Shown: one piece after another, positions 4,641 to 18,300 of the stretch
Layout of the letters: every line of letters starts with the position of its first letter
Position numbering within the stretch: the first letter of the stretch is position 1
Assembly (NCBI GenBank): GCA_001600175.1
Contig: BCJC01000002.1
Coordinates: forward strand, 2,267,111 to 2,331,110
Length of the DNA stretch: 64,000 bases
Reading direction: 5' to 3'
Origin: Erythrobasidium yunnanense
Lineage: Eukaryota; Basidiomycota; Cystobasidiomycetes; Erythrobasidiales; Erythrobasidiaceae
Position numbers and translations under genes: made by a program
The notes under the pieces: model-generated
Told to the model about the DNA's origin: nothing
The model's database searches: none
Seen by the model: the letters and a program-made list of their open reading frames with translations, nothing else

Positions 4641-5183
4641 GTGCGAAGATCAGGAGAAGCCGAGAAGCGCTGTCAATCACCTTCCGACACATGCTATCAA
4701 CACTAGATTGTCGTCGTTTCTACATCTTTTAGCAGCCCCTTCATATATACGCTCAATATATGCTACGTACAAACTCTCCTAGACGTCATGACCTAAACCA
4801 ACTCAAACGACAGCTGACCTCCAAACCGCTAGGCAGATAGGACAACATCGGTCCAGCAGTCTACCCAAATAACGCTGACAGTTTGCACGCGCATACAGAA
4901 TCGAAAATGAAAGCCATGTCTCTCTCCCTTCCTTAACAGAGTAAAAGGCATCGCAGCCCATTGGATGCGAACAAAGGCAAGCGCTGGCCAGTTGTCCAAG
5001 ATAATTCAAGGTCTTTCAGCGTGGTGCACCCGCCTTGGCTTCGATCATCAGCATACAAGGCCGGAACACAATAATTGGCCTAAGTTAGCAAACAAAACAA
5101 ACCCTAAAGACAGCTCCTCAACTCGATCTGCAAGCAAGCGTTGTTGGCGAGCTGCTCGTCAACTGCATAACAAGATCAGAGAC

Positions 5184-5690
5184 ATGTGGCCATTTGTCAA
5201 CACTTTCGATGAGGATATCGATGCCGTACGCTGGGACGTACGGGTCACGGCTCACTTGGACGATAACGGCAGAGCTACTGAACCTTTGTTCGAGTTCAAA
5301 GGCGGCAGGATATATGGACGACGTATCCGAGACTGGACGAGTGACGAAAGCATCGAGTGCTCCGTTGCTCCGGAGATAAAAGCCTTCTATCGGAAGGCAG
5401 CTCAAAAAGCATTGGATAGCGATCCGCTGGCGGGCTCGTTCTTTGCAGAACCGATAAGAGGAGCTTCAGCAGGCACGCCGTTCAGTCCACGGCTAGGCTC
5501 GTCGATAGCAAGCCTACTGACTCCCCCCACAACCCCTCTACCTAAAACATGTCAATTCAACCTGACGTGTCAGCTGAAAGAGGTGGGGCATCAAGCTCGC
5601 CCTGTGGCGAGTACACGCCGCTTTTCGAACTTCATGAAAGCGCCCGAGCGGAGTAGCTCCTGGAAGTCGAGCCGGAGAAGCTCTGTTTGA
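5184..5690 (+). CDS. Hypothetical protein
   Basis: Not recognised. The open frame runs from an ATG at 4965, but the part before 5184 looks like leader sequence, so I prefer the ATG at 5184 (MWPFVNTFDEDIDAV), giving 168 residues. Residues about 1-90 look folded: an acidic start, WDVRVTAHLDD, FEFKGGRIYGRR and a helix EIKAFYRKAAQKAL. The rest is Ser/Pro-rich (PPTTPLP) and ends in a Ser/Arg-rich tail. There are no membrane segments or known motifs. It sits between two genes for cytochrome oxidase subunits, but nothing in its sequence points to mitochondria. Start and exon structure are uncertain. Confidence 0.5.
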   Translation: MWPFVNTFDEDIDAVRWDVRVTAHLDDNGRATEPLFEFKGGRIYGRRIRDWTSDESIECSVAPEIKAFYRKAAQKALDSDPLAGSFFAEPIRGASAGTPFSPRLGSSIASLLTPPTTPLPKTCQFNLTCQLKEVGHQARPVASTRRFSNFMKAPERSSSWKSSRRSSV

Positions 5691-6963: not shown

Positions 6964-8467
6964 ATGTCATGCTACCGACCGCAATACTCAAATGAGGACG
7001 CTGCGAGGTTCGCAGCCAGAGATAATGTCCGGGAAGATCTACCGCGAGGGCCTAGGAGAGAAACTTATCGGCATGACCGCGATCCGCAAGAAGGGCCTGG
7101 TCGGCATAGTAGGCAAACGTCCTACAGCTCAATAAGTGACATACAAGACAAGTTCGTCAACCAGCGACGGACGCTGCAAGACAACGGAGGGACAGTCGAA
7201 AGAAGGCAGCAAGCGGATAGGAATGCTACTGAGGGTCGCCGGAACACTTGGGGAAGAGGGAGGTCAAGTCCATCATATGAAGCATCGTACGGTATGTCAG
7301 GTGAACTTTCGGACACTTGTGCAGACCCTGACTGACCGCGCTCAGCAGACCCGTCAGCCAGAACCCGCTTCGTCAACGATAGAAGGGCTCGCATACTCTG
7401 CAGAGACTTCCCTAACTGCAGCTACGGTGATCGCTGTCGCTTACTTCCATCCAGAAGAGATAGAGAACGAATCGCCTGCAAAAGCGTATCGCCCTGATAC
7501 GACATACGGTGGCAATGCCGATGATGCAGACAGAAAGATTCCAGCATCTCCTGATTCAAGAAGGAGGACAAGCGTGGTTTCTTCCCATACCCGCCAAGCG
7601 TCTTCAGCTAGCTCTTCCACTGCTGCCAGCGGTCCGGCATCTGCAGCGACAAGCTCGCCACAGAAGGATGCGCGGGATATAGCTAGGATAGCCGCTGAAC
7701 AGAAACTGGCGAAGGCACAATCGTGGGGATCTTCCGGCCCTCCGCTTGCCCAGGCTGGATGCGCAGCTAGCGCATGGGATGCTACAATTCCTTCGCATAC
7801 GAATCCACCAAATTCTGCACAAAATGCGTGGGGAGACTACAGCCCTGTGAATACAGCAACTGGCAATACAGTTGGGGCGGCTGCTTGGGGGAGCCCTAGT
7901 CCGCCTCCTAATAGCAGTGGGCCAATGGCACAGGCAGGCAACAATATGCCTACTGCAAGTGCACCATATATGCTCTCGATCAAGGGTGCTGCCATACCGC
8001 CTCAGGACCCTCGCTTTGCGACACCTGTCTCGACCACCAGCGAGGTATCTTCAAGGGGAACGCTGTCGTACACTGATGCACCTCAGATACCTCGCGCTCG
8101 TACTTTTAGTGGCTCGATAGGTCGGGTGCCGAATCTAGCTGCAGAACAGTCAGTACCACGTTCTATGGCAATAGGGCGTGAGCAAGCTGGTGCAGGCAGC
8201 ACGAAGGCGGAGTCTCTTTCACCGCAAATGAATATGCATAAAACCTTCGCGGGCACTAGCTTGAAGCAAGAGGCTCCGTCTACGGCATCTGAGGAGGAAG
8301 TCGACGAACTAGCGGAAGACGACAATACAACGACAACAGCGTCGAAGACACCAATATCGCCAGATATCATGTCAATATTGGCAAGAGCAAGAAGCAAACC
8401 AGCTCGATACCTGTCCTCGATCGAGCTGATTGCACGATTTGACCGAGAGTTCCCTGACTGGCTGTGA
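6964..8467 (+). CDS. CCCH zinc-finger/WG-repeat protein 1 with FPDWL tail (frame broken inside the finger)
   Basis: First of four tandem genes sharing a C-terminal tail. Exon 1 (6964-7291) is Arg/Asp-rich, ends in NTWGRGRSS and is followed by a phase-1 intron (7292-7345). Exon 2 begins with basic residues and a zinc finger, C-RDFPN-C-SYGDR-C-R. There one extra T (7441) shifts the frame; YFHPEE then follows in the new frame, which stays open to 8467. The paralogue at 9169 reads through the same site as C-x5-C-x5-C-x3-HPE, so the ancestral finger was intact. After the finger come Ser-rich disordered sequence, WG motifs (QSWGS, NAWGD, AAWGS), SIKGAA (about 7978), an acidic patch and the tail ELIARFDREFPDWL. 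The extra base may be a sequencing error, a recent lesion or +1 frameshifting; no known slippery site is visible. RNA-related function is inferred. Confidence 0.75.
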
Positions 8468-9168
8468 GTAGCTTCGTCCCTGTTGGCTATCGATCGTAAG
8501 GCTGATAAATGCGCTTGGCATGCTCTATAGGCCGGCGAGATAGTACGATCGAGCTCGCTTTTCTGTAGCATATGCATATGTAGTGGATTTGCGAAGTGTC
8601 TGTAACGGTTGTAGCAGTCTTTAGTTGCGTCTATGGGCTAGTTTGTTGTGCGTTGTCCTGTCTCCGTGCACCAAGGAAGGTGCATCGTGATGTCGCGTGC
8701 TGTTCTGCCTTGCCCTAACTGGTCGCAAAGTCTTTATTTGCAACCGGACGTAGCTCTCTCTGTGTTATCACAGAGTAACGCAAGCTTTCTCTCTTGCTGC
8801 TGGAAAGCCTCAATCGATGGATTTCAAGGCCAACATGGCCAGGTCTGGCAATTAGACATTCTACCTCGCAAAGCCCCGAATCTCGCGAAGTCACTATCTT
8901 TACATTCCTTTTAAGCACTGTGTGCACCTTCCTCTCTGCTCTGTCCAAGCTGCAGCTAGAAGCGTCGAACAAATCTTCGTTCGCATGAGACAGCTGCAAG
9001 CGGTCGTGCACGCCTCTACGCGCTCGTCTTTCAGCAAGCCCTTAATAACTTCATCTTGGAGCTTGAGCTGCGTAAGCTTGTAACTATTCTCCCACAGAGA
9101 ACGCGCTTGGGTCAGACAACCCCTATACTGCGAGGCACCGTTCAGCTGCGAAGTACACTGTACACACC
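8468..9168. other. Intergenic, no gene seen
   Basis: Between WG-repeat genes 1 and 2. Short open frames on both strands have no domain. The last part probably holds the promoter and leader of the gene at 9169. Confidence 0.5.
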
Positions 9169-11553
9169 ATGAGCGTGAGTAGTCGTAAGAGCGACAGCTG
9201 TCGCATCGCCTGGGGAGACTTATTTGAAGCTTGGGGTGACGACTGTCATGGAAGCCCGTCCTCCACTCTTGAAGACACCAGCTCTATGTCAACGTCTGAA
9301 GCAAAGCGGCGTGAGCAAGTGCTTCCTCTAGCGCAACGCATGGGAGAGGCATACTCTACACGTGAGTTCTGGCAAGGTAATTCAACGCTCACCCATACCA
9401 AGGTGATTTGGAAAGGCTGACCGTGTAAAGCAGGTCCTTACACTCTTCCTCGTAACACTAAACTACGGAACAACGATAAAAAGCGTGCCCTGTGTCTATC
9501 CTTTCCCGCCTGTCAATTCGGCACAGGGTGCCATTTCTACCATCCCGAGGACGAAGAGCCGAAAATACAAGAAACTCCTTCGGCGAAGCGATCGCGATGG
9601 GAGGCCAGCTCCCCAACCTCGCCTGGCAGGCACTCAGCGAGGTCATCAATGGCGTCTACCTCACATCAAACGATGGGTCACAGCAGATGGTATACTTTTA
9701 GCGATAAACGAGCTAGAATGCCAGCTAGGCTATGTGACGACTCATGGGCACCCACAGTACCACGCCCAAAGGTTTCAGCCTTCACCAATTCGAAATCACG
9801 CAGAAGCGAATCCGGAGATTCCAGACAGTTCAGTGAATCTATGCCTGCTGTGTTCAATGTATGGGGTGATTCCAGTCCGGCATGGACTCAGAGTCAGCCC
9901 AGCTCAGACGGATGGGGCACTCCTGATCCGCATATAACAGCTCCATCACTGGCAGACGCTTGGGGCAGTCCGGATCCTCCGGTCGCATCTGCAATACCGT
10001 CAGCTCAGAATGACTGGGGGAGTCCTGCACATTATGCTTCATCCGCTTCTACCGCAAATCATGCTTGGGGCAACCCAGAATCACCCTCACAAGCTGACAT
10101 CACGCGCGCAAGAGATCTCTGGGGAAGCGGAAACCACAGACATACCTCTTTGAGAGTATCGAGGGCGTCTTGGGGTGGTGATAGTGCTGGCCGAGCTTCA
10201 ACAACGCCATCATGCGGCGCATGGGCCAATCCTGATCCAGCGTACGAGTCATCATCATTGGGACCGAAAGTCAGCTCGGCTTCCAGGCCGCTTCCAGCAC
10301 CGGCTAGGGGAGGGCTTGAGCCTGCTGTTCCTCCTTCGCTAGAGTCAGCGGCTGCATGGGACTGCATGAATGGCAGCCATGCCACTTCAAAAACTCCAGA
10401 GGCAGCATCGGGAGCCTGGGGAGGATCAAATCCTGCTTACACGGTTGTCTCAACAGCATCACTACCCGCACGGGGCGAGGGTAGACAAGCATATAGACCG
10501 CCAGTATCGAGCGCGAAAGCGGACGCCTTTTTAGCTGCCGTACCTTCTCCAACTCCGGAAACTGCCTGGCAATGGGAAGGCCTCAGTCCGCCTTATCATA
10601 CACAATCTCTTCCAACGACTGCCTCAGGCAAAGCAAATGCTGTATGTGCAGACCAAGTTTCCGGAGAGAATACCGCTCTGCAAACGTCGTCACCATCGTC
10701 TACACTTATCACCAAGAGAGCAAGCCACAAGCGGGCTTCCTCTACCGGAGCATCGGGATCGCGTTCTCATAGATCCGCCAGGAAGTTTGCTAGAAAACCC
10801 GAAACGTCAATCGATTCAGAACAGCCTAAGTCGATTCCGGACAGATCACCCATCGATGCTGCTTTCTTAAATGACATAAGCGCATGGACACGATCATTTG
10901 CTAGCAAGCAGATACCTGCGACAAAGGAGGGGCCTAGCTGTATTGACAAGCCGCTCATCACGGAGGCTGATTGGGGCTCAGTCACCAGAGATTGGGCGAA
11001 AGACACTCCCCTTCTGAGGATTCGCGACCCGGCTGTGTCTACAAGTCCGCATCCTATTTCATTCTCCGTCAGCGCGCAAGCTAGCCAGCTCGATACATTC
11101 CCATCGGGTGGTCTGAGCATCAAGGGCGCCGCTTTGCGCAAGAAATCTACTTCTGCAGTGACGATGACTCAGCATATAGCGTCAGTCGCAACGGGTGATC
11201 AACCCCAAATTCGCGGCGCCTCGACCAAGCTCTCTACTCTGCCACATCGTCTTCCTGCTGCGAATGCGCTCATGTCGCGATCGAATATCCGTGACGCTGT
11301 CACAACCACCGAGACAGCGCGTGAGCCTTTGTCAGGCACAATGTCGGAAATTCAGATTAAAGATACTTTAGGGAGCTCTGCGGTCCATCAGCACAGCGTG
11401 CAGACGACGAAGCCAGATGTACCGACCGTCAGCTCCACAAAGACACACCTGTCGCTATCAGTAACAACTATTCAAACAAATACCAAGTACCGCTATATGA
11501 CCGCTGAAGAACTAGTAGAGCGTTTTGATAGACAGTTTCCAGATTGGCTGTGA
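9169..11553 (+). CDS. CCCH zinc-finger/WG-repeat protein 2 with FPDWL tail; candidate Argonaute-hook protein
   Basis: A 770-residue paralogue of the gene at 6964. Exon 1 (9169-9361) already carries IAWGDLFEAWGDD. A phase-1 intron (9362-9433) lies at the same place as in gene 1, just before the finger. Exon 2 starts with basic residues and one CCCH finger, C-LSFPA-C-QFGTG-C-HFY-H; this C-x5-C-x5-C-x3-H spacing recalls Nab2/ZC3H14-type poly(A)-binding fingers. A long disordered region follows with at least nine WG motifs (VWGDS, GWGTPDP, AWGSPDP, DWGSP, AWGNP, LWGSG, SWGGD, AWGGS, DWGSV) and single Trp among Pro, Ser, Gly and Asp. Near the end are SIKGAA (about 11120) and the terminal ELVERFDRQFPDWL. 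WG/GW repeats in disordered proteins are the classic ligand of Argonaute PIWI pockets. That use here is inference; there is no enzyme domain. Confidence 0.82.
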
Positions 11554-11993
11554 GTACCACTAGCAAGTGTAGAACTCAAAGGCTGATTCTGACCTTCTGC
11601 TTGATAGTCATTAACTATAACCGCGAAAAGTAAATGTAGTACCTGTAGCATTTTCACGGCGTGCAGTTGTATCAGTGCTTGTAGTGTCAGCTTGTAGTAG
11701 AATGCTTGTTGTCGCATACATGGATTCGCAGAAACTCCTTTTAGCTTTGGCTCAGACCACCACGTATCGATACGCTCGAGTCGAGCCGAGTATACAAAAA
11801 CCTATCATCACAGCTGGAAGAGCATGCTCGAACGCGCATCAGCGCGACATCCGCCTTTCGGGCGCGACCCGAACATGGGCTGTCGATTTTTTTCCTCTCA
11901 TAGCCCAAGGCGCTTCGCGTACTGCTTGTCAGCACCTTGAACACGAAGCGATTTCCCTTCTTCCGTTTGCGACTTCCAGAACTTGCTCTTACG
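11554..11993. other. Intergenic, no gene seen
   Basis: About 440 bases between genes 2 and 3 of the tandem set. The frame of gene 3 is open upstream to 11937 but has no ATG before 11994. No other signal seen. Confidence 0.5.
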
Positions 11994-13199
11994 ATGCATG
12001 AACCACCTGAGGAGCGCCTGGAAAATCGACACGCACTTCTCTCTGAACGGCCATCGGGGCTGCGGTATACGCCGTATCCCGACAGAGGACTGGCGACAGT
12101 CCTGTACTGTCACCACTGCCCGCTGTTCTTCCGAATTGGTGATCAGATGGGATGTATCGTACATCTACTGGACGCGCACCGCAGCGCGCTGGACAGTATA
12201 CAGCTAGCATCGTATATTAAATGGATCGCAAGTCACATGGAAGCGGCTGAGGTCAGAGGAGAGCGGATTGCAATACCGATGTCACCTGTGCACCTGCGCG
12301 CATCACCGCACGTTCCTTGGCAAGCTCCAGCCTGGAATCAAGCTCAGTATCCTTTACGGCGTATCGCTTATCGTGGTAGCGAAGGATTAGGCCATGGTCC
12401 AAGAACGCAACACAGTATTAAGGGCGTAGCGAATTCGCACGATGGCCAGCACAGGGCGCGAGCACATCCTTCAAGTAAGCAAGCAGATCGTACAACTTTA
12501 TCGTAGCTGCAACAGCATCGCTGATTTGAGCTTACCTAGCCCTGGCCTCTCCTAGTCCAACACCTAGCCTTTCGTACGAAGGCAAGGAGGCGTGTGGAAA
12601 GCTGCAAGCTACCCTCAACAATGCTGTCTCTCAGGCTGGGATTCAGCGGAGACCATCTGTCGCCGGTAAGCGGTAGCAGACTGCGAAAGCTTCTTGCTCC
12701 AGTGATCGTCAGAGGCTCACGCTCGTTTCTCTCAATTGTCCAAGACCTAGCCGCACTCCGTGTTGGTCTACAGAGGGACATGAGCACTCCCCTGCGATCT
12801 ACGACATCATTTGCACCCTCACGAGGCAAGGAAATACAAGCAATCCCAGACGCATTTCTACGTAAGACGTCCAGAGTAGCCCTGGACGTACCAGACAAAG
12901 CTGGCGAAGCGACACAAGTCTCGCGACCGAAGAGTGCTATTGTCTTTGGGCGATCGAAGGCAAGCAGCCCTGCTGCATCGTCTAGTGCCAGTACAGACAG
13001 CAGACCGGGGACGCCCGTATTAAGCTATCTGCTCCCACGGGACAGCGCACTCAATAGTGCCTACTCTCGAAAGACTGGACCACCTTCTTCCGAGTGGCTC
13101 TCGATGCTAGCCGCGTCTTTGCCTACACTCACTCCGCTTCAACTGGCAGACCGCTTCCAGGAGATCTTCCCTGATTGGCTCGCTCTACAGCCTCGTTAG
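11994..13199 (+). CDS. C2H2-like finger protein with FPDWL tail (tandem gene 3)
   Basis: Three exons, 11994-12474, 12540-12665 and 12715-13199, joined in phase 1 each time. The N-terminal part holds one finger-like unit, C-HH-C, then 14 residues, then H-LLDA-H (about residues 37-60), followed by a helix-rich stretch. SIKGVA appears near residue 145, matching SIKGAA in the two CCCH genes upstream. The middle is Ser/Pro-rich and basic with little order. The end is SMLAASLP followed by LADRFQEIFPDWLALQPR; this tail is closest to that of the next gene, the sirtuin. There is no known enzyme domain. The finger might bind nucleic acid or just zinc. The start is the first in-frame ATG. The shared tail and tandem position tie it to its neighbours; its function is unknown. 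Confidence 0.72.
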
Positions 13200-13652
13200 A
13201 GTCGACGACATGCACTCTTCACGCTGCGATCATGACTCAATCTTCGATTGTTCGTTACCCTAGCAAAGGGTTGATTTTCAGGATCCATGTTAGTTGCATT
13301 TACTTCATAGCTCAGCTGTATCAATACACCAATACTTGAGACACCAACTCGCCCTGTAATCATATGATGTTGATTCACTCGAAGTCAAGAGACTGCCCTC
13401 ACTTCTTCTCTCACTCGATCCATGCTCGACCGACGTCTCGCAGAACTACCCAGCGCAAGAGATCTGCTTCCATTCGCGCAGAGCGATGGCTTGAACCACC
13501 TTTAACGCGCTACATCGGCTGCTCTCCGAAGTCGCGTCCTTGAGCCTCTCGAAAATGTTTATCCACCGTCTGTACCAGTCATTGGGTATCAAGCTTCCTT
13601 AGAGTACAGCCACGACAAGTATCAGATAGCATTTCCAGCCTTATTTTGCATT
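13200..13652. other. Intergenic, no gene seen
   Basis: About 450 bases upstream of the sirtuin gene. No coding signal or repeat seen; it presumably contains the promoter. Confidence 0.5.
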
Positions 13653-15068
13653 ATGCACCGTAGTCGGGCTTTCTTCCTCTCCGCTCTATCCTCGTCAACT
13701 TGTGTATGTCCCAGCAATGCACCATATACCCTGGATCTCTCTTTATCGTATGCCTGCTAACTCACGCAGAACACGCTTATACACATTCTTGCGGCATTGC
13801 CTGCCCAGCTCGGCTCCAGGAATGTCGAAATCTCGAACAAACAGTGCTGACAGGTGTATCTCGCACGCTTGAGAGCCTCTTCCTGATGAACGCACTTCCA
13901 TCAGCGAGTATGCGTATCTTCCAAGAACATGCGCGAGAGGTGTCTGCTCTATATGCAAAAGGCTCGCAAACTGCAAAAACATCCTGGCCATTGTTGGCGC
14001 CGGGATGAGCACCAATGCCGATATCCCAGACTTCAGAAGCTCACAAGGTCGATACACAAGCGAGGGCAGCAAGCGCGAAGTCAAGGAGCTCTTCAAGGCG
14101 AGTGTCTTCGCGGTGAGTCCTCTGGTGTATTCCCTGGCAAAAGAATACGCTAACTTATATATACAGAATGCGGGAGCCTCAGAAGCTCTCCACGAAGTCC
14201 TGCAAGACATCTACAATGCATCTCTGGTTGCCGCCCCAACTCCGTTTCACGAACTGCTGTTTGCTCTGCACACTCGCAACCAGCTTCAAAGGGTCTACAC
14301 TCAAGTGAGGCAAAAGTCCAGCTCAGTACTCCTGCTCTGCTGATATACTGTTCTGCCCAGAACATGGACGATCTTGAAGGCAAGGCTGGATTTCGTCTCA
14401 GCAGGAACACGTCACATCTCTCTCGCGGCGATGCCATACAGCTCTATGGTAGCGTTTCTCTCCTCATCTGCTCCAATTGTCGCCATCTGGCCAAGCTGGC
14501 CAACTATCTAGACCGATCCGGATATCCCTGCCCGCTGTGTGGTCACAGAACCAGCTCCAAAGGACGACCTATACCCTCTAATGGCATACTCAGGCCTGCG
14601 GTTACCCTAAACGATATGACGGATATCGTTCAGCTCAATCACGCAAGCATTGACGATGTCATGCAGAAGGATATCTCGTCTGCCTTGGATCTTGTCTTGG
14701 TAGCCGGCCCGAGTCTTACCGCCCCCGAAGTGCGCTCCTTTCTGCAAACTTTGAAGCAACAAAAGGCAGCGAGGGCATCTTTCGTCTTTGTAGGAAAGGA
14801 TATACCCACGACAAAGCTCGCCAATATCTTCGACTACATTGTGCAGGGCGACTGCGACACTTTCGCATGTACTTGCACAAGCACCTCGATGCAGATCCGT
14901 AATGAGCTGGACGACTCGAATCGGCGTTCGATGCTGGCGGCATCTCTGCCTAGTGCACCTGAGTTGGCAGACCGGTTTGCGGAGATATTTCCAGACTGGC
15001 TTCCTCTACACCCTGGTCCCTTCAAAGTCAACATTGTCAGTTTAGATTATAGACACGTGCATTCGTGA
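13653..15068 (+). CDS. Sirtuin-like protein (Hst3/Hst4 type), catalytic His replaced by Tyr, FPDWL tail
   Basis: Five exons (13653-13703, 13770-13843, 13926-14112, 14167-14304, 14361-15068) join in phase to 385 residues. Sir2-fold motifs: NILAIVGAGMSTNADIPDFRSS (Rossmann and cofactor loop), KELFKASVF, PTPFHELL, VYTQNMDDLE, a zinc ribbon C-SN-C...C-PL-C, GILRPAV and VAGPSL. GILRPAV and the KELFxASVF block suggest the nuclear Hst3/Hst4 branch, whose members deacetylate histone H3 K56. The conserved catalytic histidine of the LHGS motif is tyrosine here (LYGS, codon 14445-14447, about residue 179). The same His-to-Tyr change is the textbook way to inactivate Sir2, so deacetylase activity is doubtful while NAD or partner binding may remain. 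After the Sir2 core come SMLAASLP and ELADRFAEIFPDWL, shared with the three upstream genes and foreign to sirtuins. Confidence 0.85.
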
Positions 15069-15334: not shown

Positions 15335-18300
15335 ATGTCCGGCAACGACCATCAGACCTCCCGCAACAATCACAGCCGTTCACAGAGCTATACAGGCAAT
15401 CAGTATGCCGCACGAGTCTACAATGCTGCCAACGCTGCAGCCATGGCGGCCCAACCACTGCTTGGCTACCTCGGAGCTGGTTCTACACAGCAATCAGCTT
15501 CAGTACCTCGAACGATAGTACCGGATAGCGTCAAGAGTCATCTATATGCTGCGGAAAGCTCGCAGCGTCCAGAGGGTGTCGCTGGAGGCGCATCGTCACC
15601 ATCAAGAGCCGATACGCCCAACCTTTCTAGCGGTACAGCGATGCGACGGGCTGCTTCCACAGACGAAGACCCTCGGCGTAAAGATAGTCGGAATCTCGAC
15701 TCCATCATCTCCGTAGGCTAGATCTAATCCTACGTCGAATGAAGGTATCTTTAGCTGACTCCACGCCCTTCCCTACAGCAATTCTTCTCAAAGGCCGCCC
15801 AGATCATTGTCCAAGCACGTCTCACACATCTTCAAGCTCAACATGAAGTACTGCATTCAGCGGCCGCGCAAGGCGGTAACAAGCGGACGCGGAACAGATG
15901 GTTCAATCTGGAAATGGACGAGGTCGACGTCTTCAAGGAGGAGCTCAAGACCTGGAGATCAGTCACTAGTATACTGGCCGAAGCCGCAGGTCACCCAGGA
16001 TTAGCAACGTCAGGAGCCGGCATGCTGGTCCCTAGTATGGTGATCGACGTTATTCTGGACGTCTCCGATATGTCTGGAAATCAGGTTCTGGTCCTGAATG
16101 ACGCAAACAGAGAGGGTAGACGGCTGCGGGTCGACCTTTCCAGGCAAGGCGAGCGCAACAAGCTTGGCGGACACGCTTCTTCGAGCAACAGCCCAAAGCG
16201 ATGCAACATCGTTCTTGAACAATGGACATTGGTACTCCGTCCACCTGCGCCTGCCGTATCTCCAGAATTGCCAAGCGTCTACAAACACTGCATCATCGTA
16301 GGTCGTGTCAACACGCTATCACACACAGCATATGCTAATATGTTTGCGAGCAGCTCTTTCGCGCGCTCTTCACACTTGTTCGAGCGCTTCCCGCATTCGA
16401 TTTGTACAGGAAGCAGAGACGGAGAACGAGCCGTAGCGAACTCAAGATCGGTTGCCGGATGTCGGCCAAAGAGCCAGAGTCGGCCATTTCCAAAGGTTTC
16501 GACAGCCAAGTCTTTGTTGAGGAAGATAGACTTGAGATCGGGATAGGTGAGATGCGAACCTGTGGCGAACGGACCAGCGTTGACGAGATTTACGGGGCAG
16601 ACGAACCACTTAGCCAAGAAAGCTCGGCGCCTGCTACCGAGGAGTATGCTTTCAGCCCCATTGTGACGCCCTTGGGTCTTCTTGACTTGAAGTGCAAATA
16701 TCGGAGTGCTGTCGACTTTAGCGTGGAGGAAATAGAGGCTCTCCTCTCCTCTCGCTTCCTAGACGAAGACTTCTTCAAGCCTACGATGCGAAAGTATTCA
16801 AGTGGGAGCGGAGTATGTCAAATTGTGTCTCCCTTATGTATCCTGCTAATAAAGTTTGTTCTCTAGGTCGGCTCTTTACCAATAAGAGGCAGTACGCCAA
16901 TGTCTGCGCAGCCCTCTCGACAAAGTTATGGCTCCCCAATATCTCGACAAGTCGTTCAACGGGATTCTCCGTCAACATCGCAAGCCAGCTTACCTAGGCC
17001 CAACGAGACGGAAGGTGCTTTCATTACGTATGGACGAGCCAGCGGGGCACAGGCTATGACTCGCGGCCTCTCTGCGCAAGGTACACCGCCCTTACAAAGA
17101 AGACCATCAACCGGAACTTCCCATCCTTTTAAGCCATCATCCTCTCCTCTAAGCGGAGGCAGCACTGCTCGCCAGGCATCTTCAGCTTCGCCTTTGGAAG
17201 CACAGACGTTGACAGAGAGGTACAGCGCTTCTCAGCGGCTGTCGAATACTCCCGCTTCTGCAGGCACATCAGCTTTGCGCTATACCTCGCCTCGTCAAAC
17301 ATCTGCAACGTCTTCTTCTCAACTATTTTACACCAAGCAAACCATCTCACCTCCCGAGGGCAGCCGTTCTCCCATATCGGGCCTTTCCGCTCTGCAGATC
17401 GGCACTCCGCCTGCCAAACCTGCAAGCGCGTCCAACAGAAGTCCAACGCAGGCTATAGCAATGCCTGGAACTTCAGCTATTCCTCTCTCATCTTCGCCCA
17501 CCCCAAGTCTGATCAAGCGATATTCTAGCTCCCGCTATTCTCGCTCATACGGGCAGCACAGCTCTGGCAGCAGTCCTAGCGAGGCGCAAGGGCCATGGGC
17601 AGCTGAGGGCTCAGTCAGACATTCCCGCATGTCTTCGGACGCGCCCACCCGGAATGACAGCCTTCTTTCCTCGGAAAGCTCTTCTGCTCGATACTCAGGC
17701 AATCCTACTGGCAAGTCAGCCGATCTTCGAGGAGGAGGCGAGGACAACGGAGATATCAGGAGCTTCCTGGCAATGATCGACAGCCATGCGCACATAGGAC
17801 ATCTGCGGCCCGGTCAGTCAATCACGACAGCCTCATCTTCGTCAGCCAACGCTTCCTTCGGCCGAGCACAAGCAGAAGAGAGGCTGAGGCTTCTCGCAAG
17901 ATCCGTGTATCAAGATCAGAACGAAGAAGGTATCCCAACACTGCAAGGTAGCCGACCTCTACCTATCACCCGGCACATACGGTCAAGATCCGGAGACGGG
18001 TCTACCTTCGCCCCTTCGGCTTCTGCAAGGCACTCGCCCTCGCCAGATCTCCACTCTATCAGTCCCGCCGAGGGTACTGCGTACTTGGCCTCAGCTTCAT
18101 CAGCTACAGCTGCATCGATACGAATCAGGGCATCTCAGCCGCCTATGTCTAGCAGTATACCAGAAGAAGATTCCCATATGTCTGCGCATCCCTCCTCCTA
18201 TAGCAGAGCTCGCGGCGAGCATTTTCCCTTTCCTCGTTATCAGTCTACCCGGCGAAGGTCCAGTCAAGGCAGCGACAAGGCTAGGCCTTCTTTACTCGGT

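Follow-up and report, generated by a model that had tools for sequence, protein, structure and literature searches.

Helical short linear docking motifs occur at the ends of disordered proteins. Several further systems come close to the locus described here. The WG/GW hooks of Tas3, GW182 and other proteins bind Argonaute, as set out in excerpts of PMC2904775, and Gwo1 and Gwc1 are GW proteins of Cryptococcus (PMC4778953, in part). Among the sirtuins, excerpts of the published work report that deacetylase activity is eliminated in the laboratory inactive allele Sir2-H364Y (PMC4053722), and that class M sirtuins (SirTM/Mfs1) have Gln where the catalytic His would stand and, in fungi, are fused to a macrodomain (PMC4518038).

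The locus in question lies in a stretch of 64,000 nucleotides from Erythrobasidium yunnanense (contig BCJC01000002.1, positions 2,267,111 to 2,331,110; hereafter the window), in which four consecutive genes, numbered 1 to 4, share the peptide tail LxxRFxxxFPDWL near their ends. The models of these genes were derived from sequence alone, and patterns, peptide queries and profiles were run against the 10 contigs (20.9 Mb) of the genome; the size of this genome and the short introns are in keeping with a fungus. We lean slightly towards the view that the tail is an old helical docking module which was duplicated locally and is kept by purifying selection; it would bind one common putative partner and is also carried by a probable pseudo-sirtuin.

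Occurrence and conservation of the tail

The tail had been noticed in the first-pass annotation of the window, and all four copies are indeed read in the frames given there, on the plus strand (Table 1). With two DNA patterns, the LxxRFxxxFPDWL core was found just four times in the genome, on one strand and inside a span of 6.6 kb. From residue frequencies, the expected number of hits is approximately 5e-6 for the window and 0.0016 for the genome. A frame slip in gene 1 and the predicted last introns of genes 1 and 2 would fit an origin of the tail in chance or in a reading artefact, an explanation to which we attach almost no weight given the four copies in 6.6 kb against an expectation of 0.0016 for the genome, and given the synonymous pattern described below. 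A looser pattern, R[FYL]xxx[FYLIV]PxW, recovered the four tails and two other matches from the six frames of the window, RFTRPYPFW (45223) and RLRYRLPCW (53201), neither of which resembles the tail.

A search for other genes with the tail, which the earlier annotation had proposed as a check, gave no fifth copy in the genome, with the proviso that these searches are six-frame and that a tail with an intron inside the core or with altered core letters would escape them. As a DNA pattern, FPDWL has 15 genome matches (3 for the reversed pattern). Four of these are the tails; LxxRF precedes none of the remaining 11, seven of which have a stop in the 50 upstream codons. RFxxxFPxW likewise gave the four tails among 11 matches, with 3 for the control, and the seven remaining matches lack the LxxRF or FPDWL parts of the core. 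The nearest of these seven, RFELSFPDWT (C2:3244161), is without the first and last Leu and sits within 85 open codons, overlapping a longer open reading frame (ORF) of another frame; the surrounding 9.5 kb gave none of the finger, SIKGA or WG motifs that were looked for, and we judge it to be a chance match. Three peptide queries of the genome recovered only the tails themselves (one, two and two of the four), so such queries are insensitive to distant copies. Around two of the genome pattern matches, C6:1957712 and C9:6048, the translated stretch is identical, and at both the distance to the end of the contig is roughly 6 kb; this points to a segment duplicated between chromosome ends.

To our knowledge, LxxRFxxxFPDWL corresponds to no described motif, as had been supposed from the outset. 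Consistent with this, a profile of the tail gave nine matches to PDB sequences, judged to be chance (best E 0.28; the first two rows of the alignment behind the profile end in an artificial W, from TGA read as W), and FPDWL itself occurs in the full text of 6 open-licence papers, of which the 5 that were listed are, judged by title, unrelated. The feature combinations of the cluster, searched in the same literature, returned no such cluster by title.

The proposal that the peptide, and not the DNA, is being kept is well borne out by the codons, as synonymous sites are near saturation between the tails while the residues are conserved. Of the 12 codons of the core, two are identical, seven synonymous and three replaced between genes 1 and 2, and four, seven and one, respectively, between genes 3 and 4. 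Selection was assessed on these codons in all six tail pairs, where synonymous differences (pS) range from 0.72 to 1.14 and replacement differences (pN) from 0.07 to 0.37; values of pS above 1 arise because synonymous sites are few. The deficit of replacements is marked within pairs, both for the 12 codons (genes 1 and 2, P 1.4e-4; genes 3 and 4, P 3e-4) and for longer blocks (19 residues of genes 1 and 2, P 9e-5; 31 residues of genes 3 and 4, P 6e-4). The SMLAASLP reported as common to genes 3 and 4 is confirmed and lies in the latter block, which forms their ends and is 71% identical (BLASTP E 1.8e-8; comparisons among the genes used a five-sequence database with composition correction off).

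To model the tail in three dimensions, AlphaFold2 was run without an alignment on the gene 2 ORF and on the last exon of gene 4. Of the 710 residues of the gene 2 ORF, 684 have a predicted local distance difference test score (pLDDT) below 50 and 17 a score of at least 70, with the last two ten-residue blocks averaging 75 and 79; here a helix (695-705, AEELVERFDRQ) is followed by FPDWL. The model of the gene 4 exon is poor (mean pLDDT 35) and places a helix at the tail (199-209, APELADRFAEI). Both predictions fit a short helix followed by FPDWL. The prediction would also suit self-association, in which the four proteins form homo- or hetero-oligomers without a third partner, since the helix is short, comes with hydrophobic L, F, F, W and L and closes a protein that is otherwise largely disordered. 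The GW protein Tas3 has a C-terminal oligomerising helix, which we count in favour of this idea. Nothing speaks directly against it, and charged positions differ between the pair of genes 1 and 2 and the pair of genes 3 and 4; we regard self-association as rather unlikely.

The tail had also been described as the C-terminus of the four proteins, and a strictly terminal place is not supported, as gene 3 continues for 5 residues (ALQPR) and gene 4 for 21 residues past FPDWL. In genes 1 and 2, the TGA that looks like the stop is overlapped by a likely GTGAGT donor, which starts inside the last Leu codon of FPDWL, at the same tail codon and in the same phase in both genes; a branch-like sequence (CTGAT or CTGAC) and an AG follow downstream. 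GTGAGT occurs 16 times on the plus strand of the window. The predicted ends are DWLPAR (gene 1) and DWLH (gene 2) if spliced and DWL in both if unspliced. The tail of genes 1 and 2 is therefore read in either case, which eases the objection, foreseen in the earlier annotation, that these ends might not be translated in their frames, provided that the upstream frame is right. Since the donors at 8464 and 11550 overlap an in-frame stop, the spliced and unspliced ends are at most three residues apart.

Because the four ends differ after FPDWL, the internal helix rather than the terminus appears to be the conserved unit. This disfavours a terminal signal read through its end, such as a C-degron, a PDZ-type ligand or a targeting signal, for which the position of the tail near the C-terminus in four of four genes would otherwise argue; with ends of L or LPAR, L or LH, LALQPR and 21 further residues (genes 1 to 4), we consider it very improbable. 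An Atg8-interacting motif, which is defined as W-x-x-L/I/V, was rejected as a feature of all tails, since WLAL (gene 3) and WLPL (gene 4) agree with it but WLPA or WL-stop (gene 1) and WLH-stop or WL-stop (gene 2) do not.

Relationships among the four genes

Genes 1 and 2 are, to judge from their common features, diverged tandem paralogs, as they share the finger region, WG repeats, SIKGAA, the tail, the tail intron at the same codon and a second intron of the same phase. With composition correction and low-complexity masking off, the finger regions match at 40% identity across 25 residues (E 4.6e-4); for the rest, identity is 27% with many gaps (E 1.2e-13). The phase-1 intron lies 18 residues (gene 1) and 20 residues (gene 2) before the first finger Cys. 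The gene 2 finger fits the Nab2-type spacing C-x5-C-x5-C-x3-H, and the Nab2-type finger scores below the Pfam cut-off of 25.8 bits in both genes (18.2 bits, E 0.0037, for the gene 1 piece; 15 bits, E 0.038, for gene 2). No Pfam family exceeded its cut-off in genes 1 to 3.

The gene placed at 6964 carries the tail and does not form a single open frame: the finger frame (6964-7291 and 7346-7440) and the tail frame, open to 8467, are one base apart. After its phase-1 intron, gene 1 contains a one-base frame slip inside the CCCH finger (7396-7450), just after CRDFPNCSYGDRCR, which may be a sequence error or a real lesion.

WG/GW dipeptides are abundant in gene 2, with 12 in its 771 residues and 10 in its main ORF, a number reached by none of 2000 shuffles. 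The gene 1 ORF has 3, a mild excess (P 0.023), 11 chosen other ORFs of the window have at most one each, and genes 3 and 4 have none. Searched against the genome at a cut-off of 0.01, the gene 2 main ORF matched only itself; it missed its relative gene 1, so weak relatives escape this search. An IRGAS at 5454, in an upstream ORF (4911-5690) without a Pfam family, is similar to motifs of genes 1 and 2 (SIKGAA, IRGAS), a likeness that may be due to chance.

Gene 3 most simply belongs to the family of genes 1 and 2, an assignment that draws on two short motifs, SIKG(V/A)A and the tail. Its N-terminus, searched against the genome at a cut-off of 1, found only itself in a type of search that misses weak relatives, and four of the eight acceptors tried for its second intron keep the frame. 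The four proteins had been called unlike one another; with genes 1 and 2 paralogous and gene 3 sharing SIKG(V/A)A as well as the tail, only the sirtuin is foreign. Local common descent would therefore explain most of the sharing of the tail, and a separate gain is required only for the sirtuin. A wider family was sought through IKG followed by AA, AS or AT, with 27 genome matches against 19 for the control and therefore no clear enrichment. One IKGAA lies near a CCCH locus on C3, where the finger row and the IKGAA are in separate ORFs; the finger-row gene presumably resembles CPSF30, the ORF with IKGAA looks to us like a sulfurtransferase, and this candidate was rejected.

These relationships raise the question of whether paralogy is all there is, with genes 1 to 3 as an old tandem family, a local duplication that gave gene 4 the 3' end of gene 3, and the tail as the best-preserved relic of this history, with no shared partner today. 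The finger, WG and SIKG motifs, the shared intron position, the adjacency of all tail copies and a significant match between genes 3 and 4 that does not extend beyond their end block of 31 residues would all be expected from such a history. What sets the tail apart is that the peptide stays when synonymous sites are near saturation and when the disordered part before it aligns weakly even between genes 1 and 2, which argues that it is selected for something. We consider paralogy as the sole explanation rather unlikely; like self-association, it is a serious rival of the docking reading.

Gene 4 is a sirtuin, as had been recognised, with a SIR2 domain well above its cut-off (PF02146, E 1.5e-19, 71.1 bits against 24). 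Our model of it starts at 13822 rather than at 13653, and this start is uncertain. The complete, ordinary core that had been assumed is not supported. QLYGS of gene 4 aligns to QCHGS of Sir2 in phmmer, putting Tyr opposite the catalytic His, which we take to be H364. In the nucleotide-binding pocket for nicotinamide adenine dinucleotide (NAD), GAGMS and TQNMD are kept, GIPDFR has become DIPDFR and GTSL has become GPSL; both CxxC of the zinc module are present (CSNC, CPLC). As HG is kept in all five other SIR2 loci above the cut-off in the genome (six-frame reading; a weaker sixth, C2:1448005, is outside this count), the Tyr suggests that gene 4 is a natural pseudo-sirtuin that has probably lost its deacetylase activity. 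Gene 4 was also considered as a class M sirtuin and rejected, having Tyr instead of Gln and no macrodomain among its Pfam matches. The ORF directly downstream of gene 4 (15755-16546) matches ATG13 (PF10033, E 1.5e-33).

Table 1. Positions in the window of the four genes, their tails and other motifs.
Feature	Position	Strand	Details
Tail, gene 1, LIARFDREFPDWL	8426-8464	+	read directly
Tail, gene 2, LVERFDRQFPDWL	11512-11550	+	read directly; predicted helix AEELVERFDRQ, then FPDWL
Tail, gene 3, LADRFQEIFPDWL	13143-13181	+	read directly; then ALQPR and stop
Tail, gene 4, LADRFAEIFPDWL	14964-15002	+	read directly; then 21 more residues
Gene 1, Nab2-like CCCH finger, WG repeats, SIKGAA and tail	6964..8543	+	exons ~6964-7291, 7346-7440, frame slip, on to 8463; 8531-8543 if last intron spliced
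Gene 1 CCCH finger, first part (CRDFPNCSYGDRCR)	7396..7440	+	PF14608 E 0.0037, below curated cut-off; genome match
SIKGAA, gene 1	7976..7993	+	motif match
Probable intron, gene 1, GTGAGT...TATAG	8464..8530	+	donor inside last Leu codon of tail
Gene 2, paralog of gene 1, 12 WG/GW	9169..11614	+	exons 9169-9361, 9434-11549, 11608-11614; stop 11553 if last intron kept
Gene 2 CCCH finger (CLSFPACQFGTGCHFYH)	9493..9546	+	motif, Pfam and genome match
SIKGAA, gene 2	11116..11133	+	motif match
Probable intron, gene 2	11550..11607	+	same tail codon and phase as gene 1
Gene 3, N-terminus with Cys and His (YCHHC...HLLDAH)	11994..13199	+	exons 11994-12474, 12540-12665, then to 13199 from one of four acceptors (12703-12751)
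SIKGVA, gene 3	12414..12431	+	motif match
Gene 4, degenerate sirtuin	13822..15068	+	exons 13822-13853 (start uncertain), 13905-14112, 14167-14304, 14361-15068; SIR2 E 1.5e-19
Tyr codon at place of sirtuin catalytic His (QLYGS)	14445-14447	+	alignment

A putative docking module and its described counterparts

In the docking reading that we favour, the short amphipathic helix and FPDWL would dock on one common putative partner; both the docking and a partner common to the four tails are what the comparison of the sequences suggests to us. The tail would have belonged to a local gene family and would have been duplicated along with it, in genes 1 and 2 and in the branch leading to gene 3, and been copied onto the 3' end of the sirtuin gene, or else from the sirtuin gene into gene 3. 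To such an assembly, genes 1 and 2 would bring a Nab2-like CCCH finger, for RNA, and a WG array that is clearest in gene 2, and gene 4 a sirtuin fold with its deacetylase activity probably lost, as a binding or blocking subunit.

Several points weigh against this interpretation. Most of the sharing of the tail could be put down to paralogy alone, and the slipped frame of gene 1 could be a sign that one of the copies is in decay. In an ungapped alignment, two residues separate the first introns of genes 1 and 2, and their position is therefore close rather than identical. The deficit of replacements is weaker between pairs (gene 1 or 2 with gene 3 or 4; P 0.021, 0.045, 0.057 and 0.11), the six tail pairs are interdependent and 12 codons are a small sample. 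Lastly, the structural models were made without an alignment, and the one for the gene 4 exon is poor.

A link of the WG-bearing members, as putative Argonaute hooks, to RNA silencing is possible because of the WG repeats and the Argonaute and RNA-dependent RNA polymerase (RdRP) genes in the genome, where Piwi matches were found in three places, some with internal stops in six-frame reading, and RdRP matches in two. One could go further and imagine a locally assembled RNA-silencing complex, in which two finger proteins that bind RNA and hook Argonaute would join one hub via the tail, together with a third protein and a naturally dead sirtuin, the latter as a reader of acetyl-lysine or NAD or as a blocker of active sirtuins; this fuller picture we consider unlikely.

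If the tail is the handle for one partner, the genome alone would name four subunits of an undescribed complex. If it is mere inheritance within a tandem family, it would be a clear case of a short helix outlasting the rest of disordered proteins. A natural His-to-Tyr sirtuin would in addition show what the sirtuin fold does without deacetylation, and would be useful because it copies an allele used as inactive in the laboratory.

Set beside the described helical docking motifs, the tail is alike in being a short helix with few fixed aromatics, in an otherwise disordered protein and in more than one protein; it differs in that LxxRFxxxFPDWL is none of the described motifs that we know. With the Argonaute-hook proteins (Tas3, GW182; Gwo1 and Gwc1), as described in excerpts of PMC2904775 and PMC4778953, gene 2 has the WG/GW array in common, in a genome with Piwi and RdRP matches, and it differs from them in its CCCH finger and FPDWL tail; genes 3 and 4 are without WG/GW. 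Gene 4 resembles the class M sirtuins, in the part of PMC4518038 that describes SirTM/Mfs1, in being a sirtuin without the catalytic His, but those have Gln and, in fungi, a macrodomain where gene 4 has Tyr and no macrodomain among its Pfam matches. Sir2-H364Y, according to an excerpt of PMC4053722, has the same change of His to Tyr; in gene 4 this change is natural and is accompanied by DIPDFR for GIPDFR and GPSL for GTSL.

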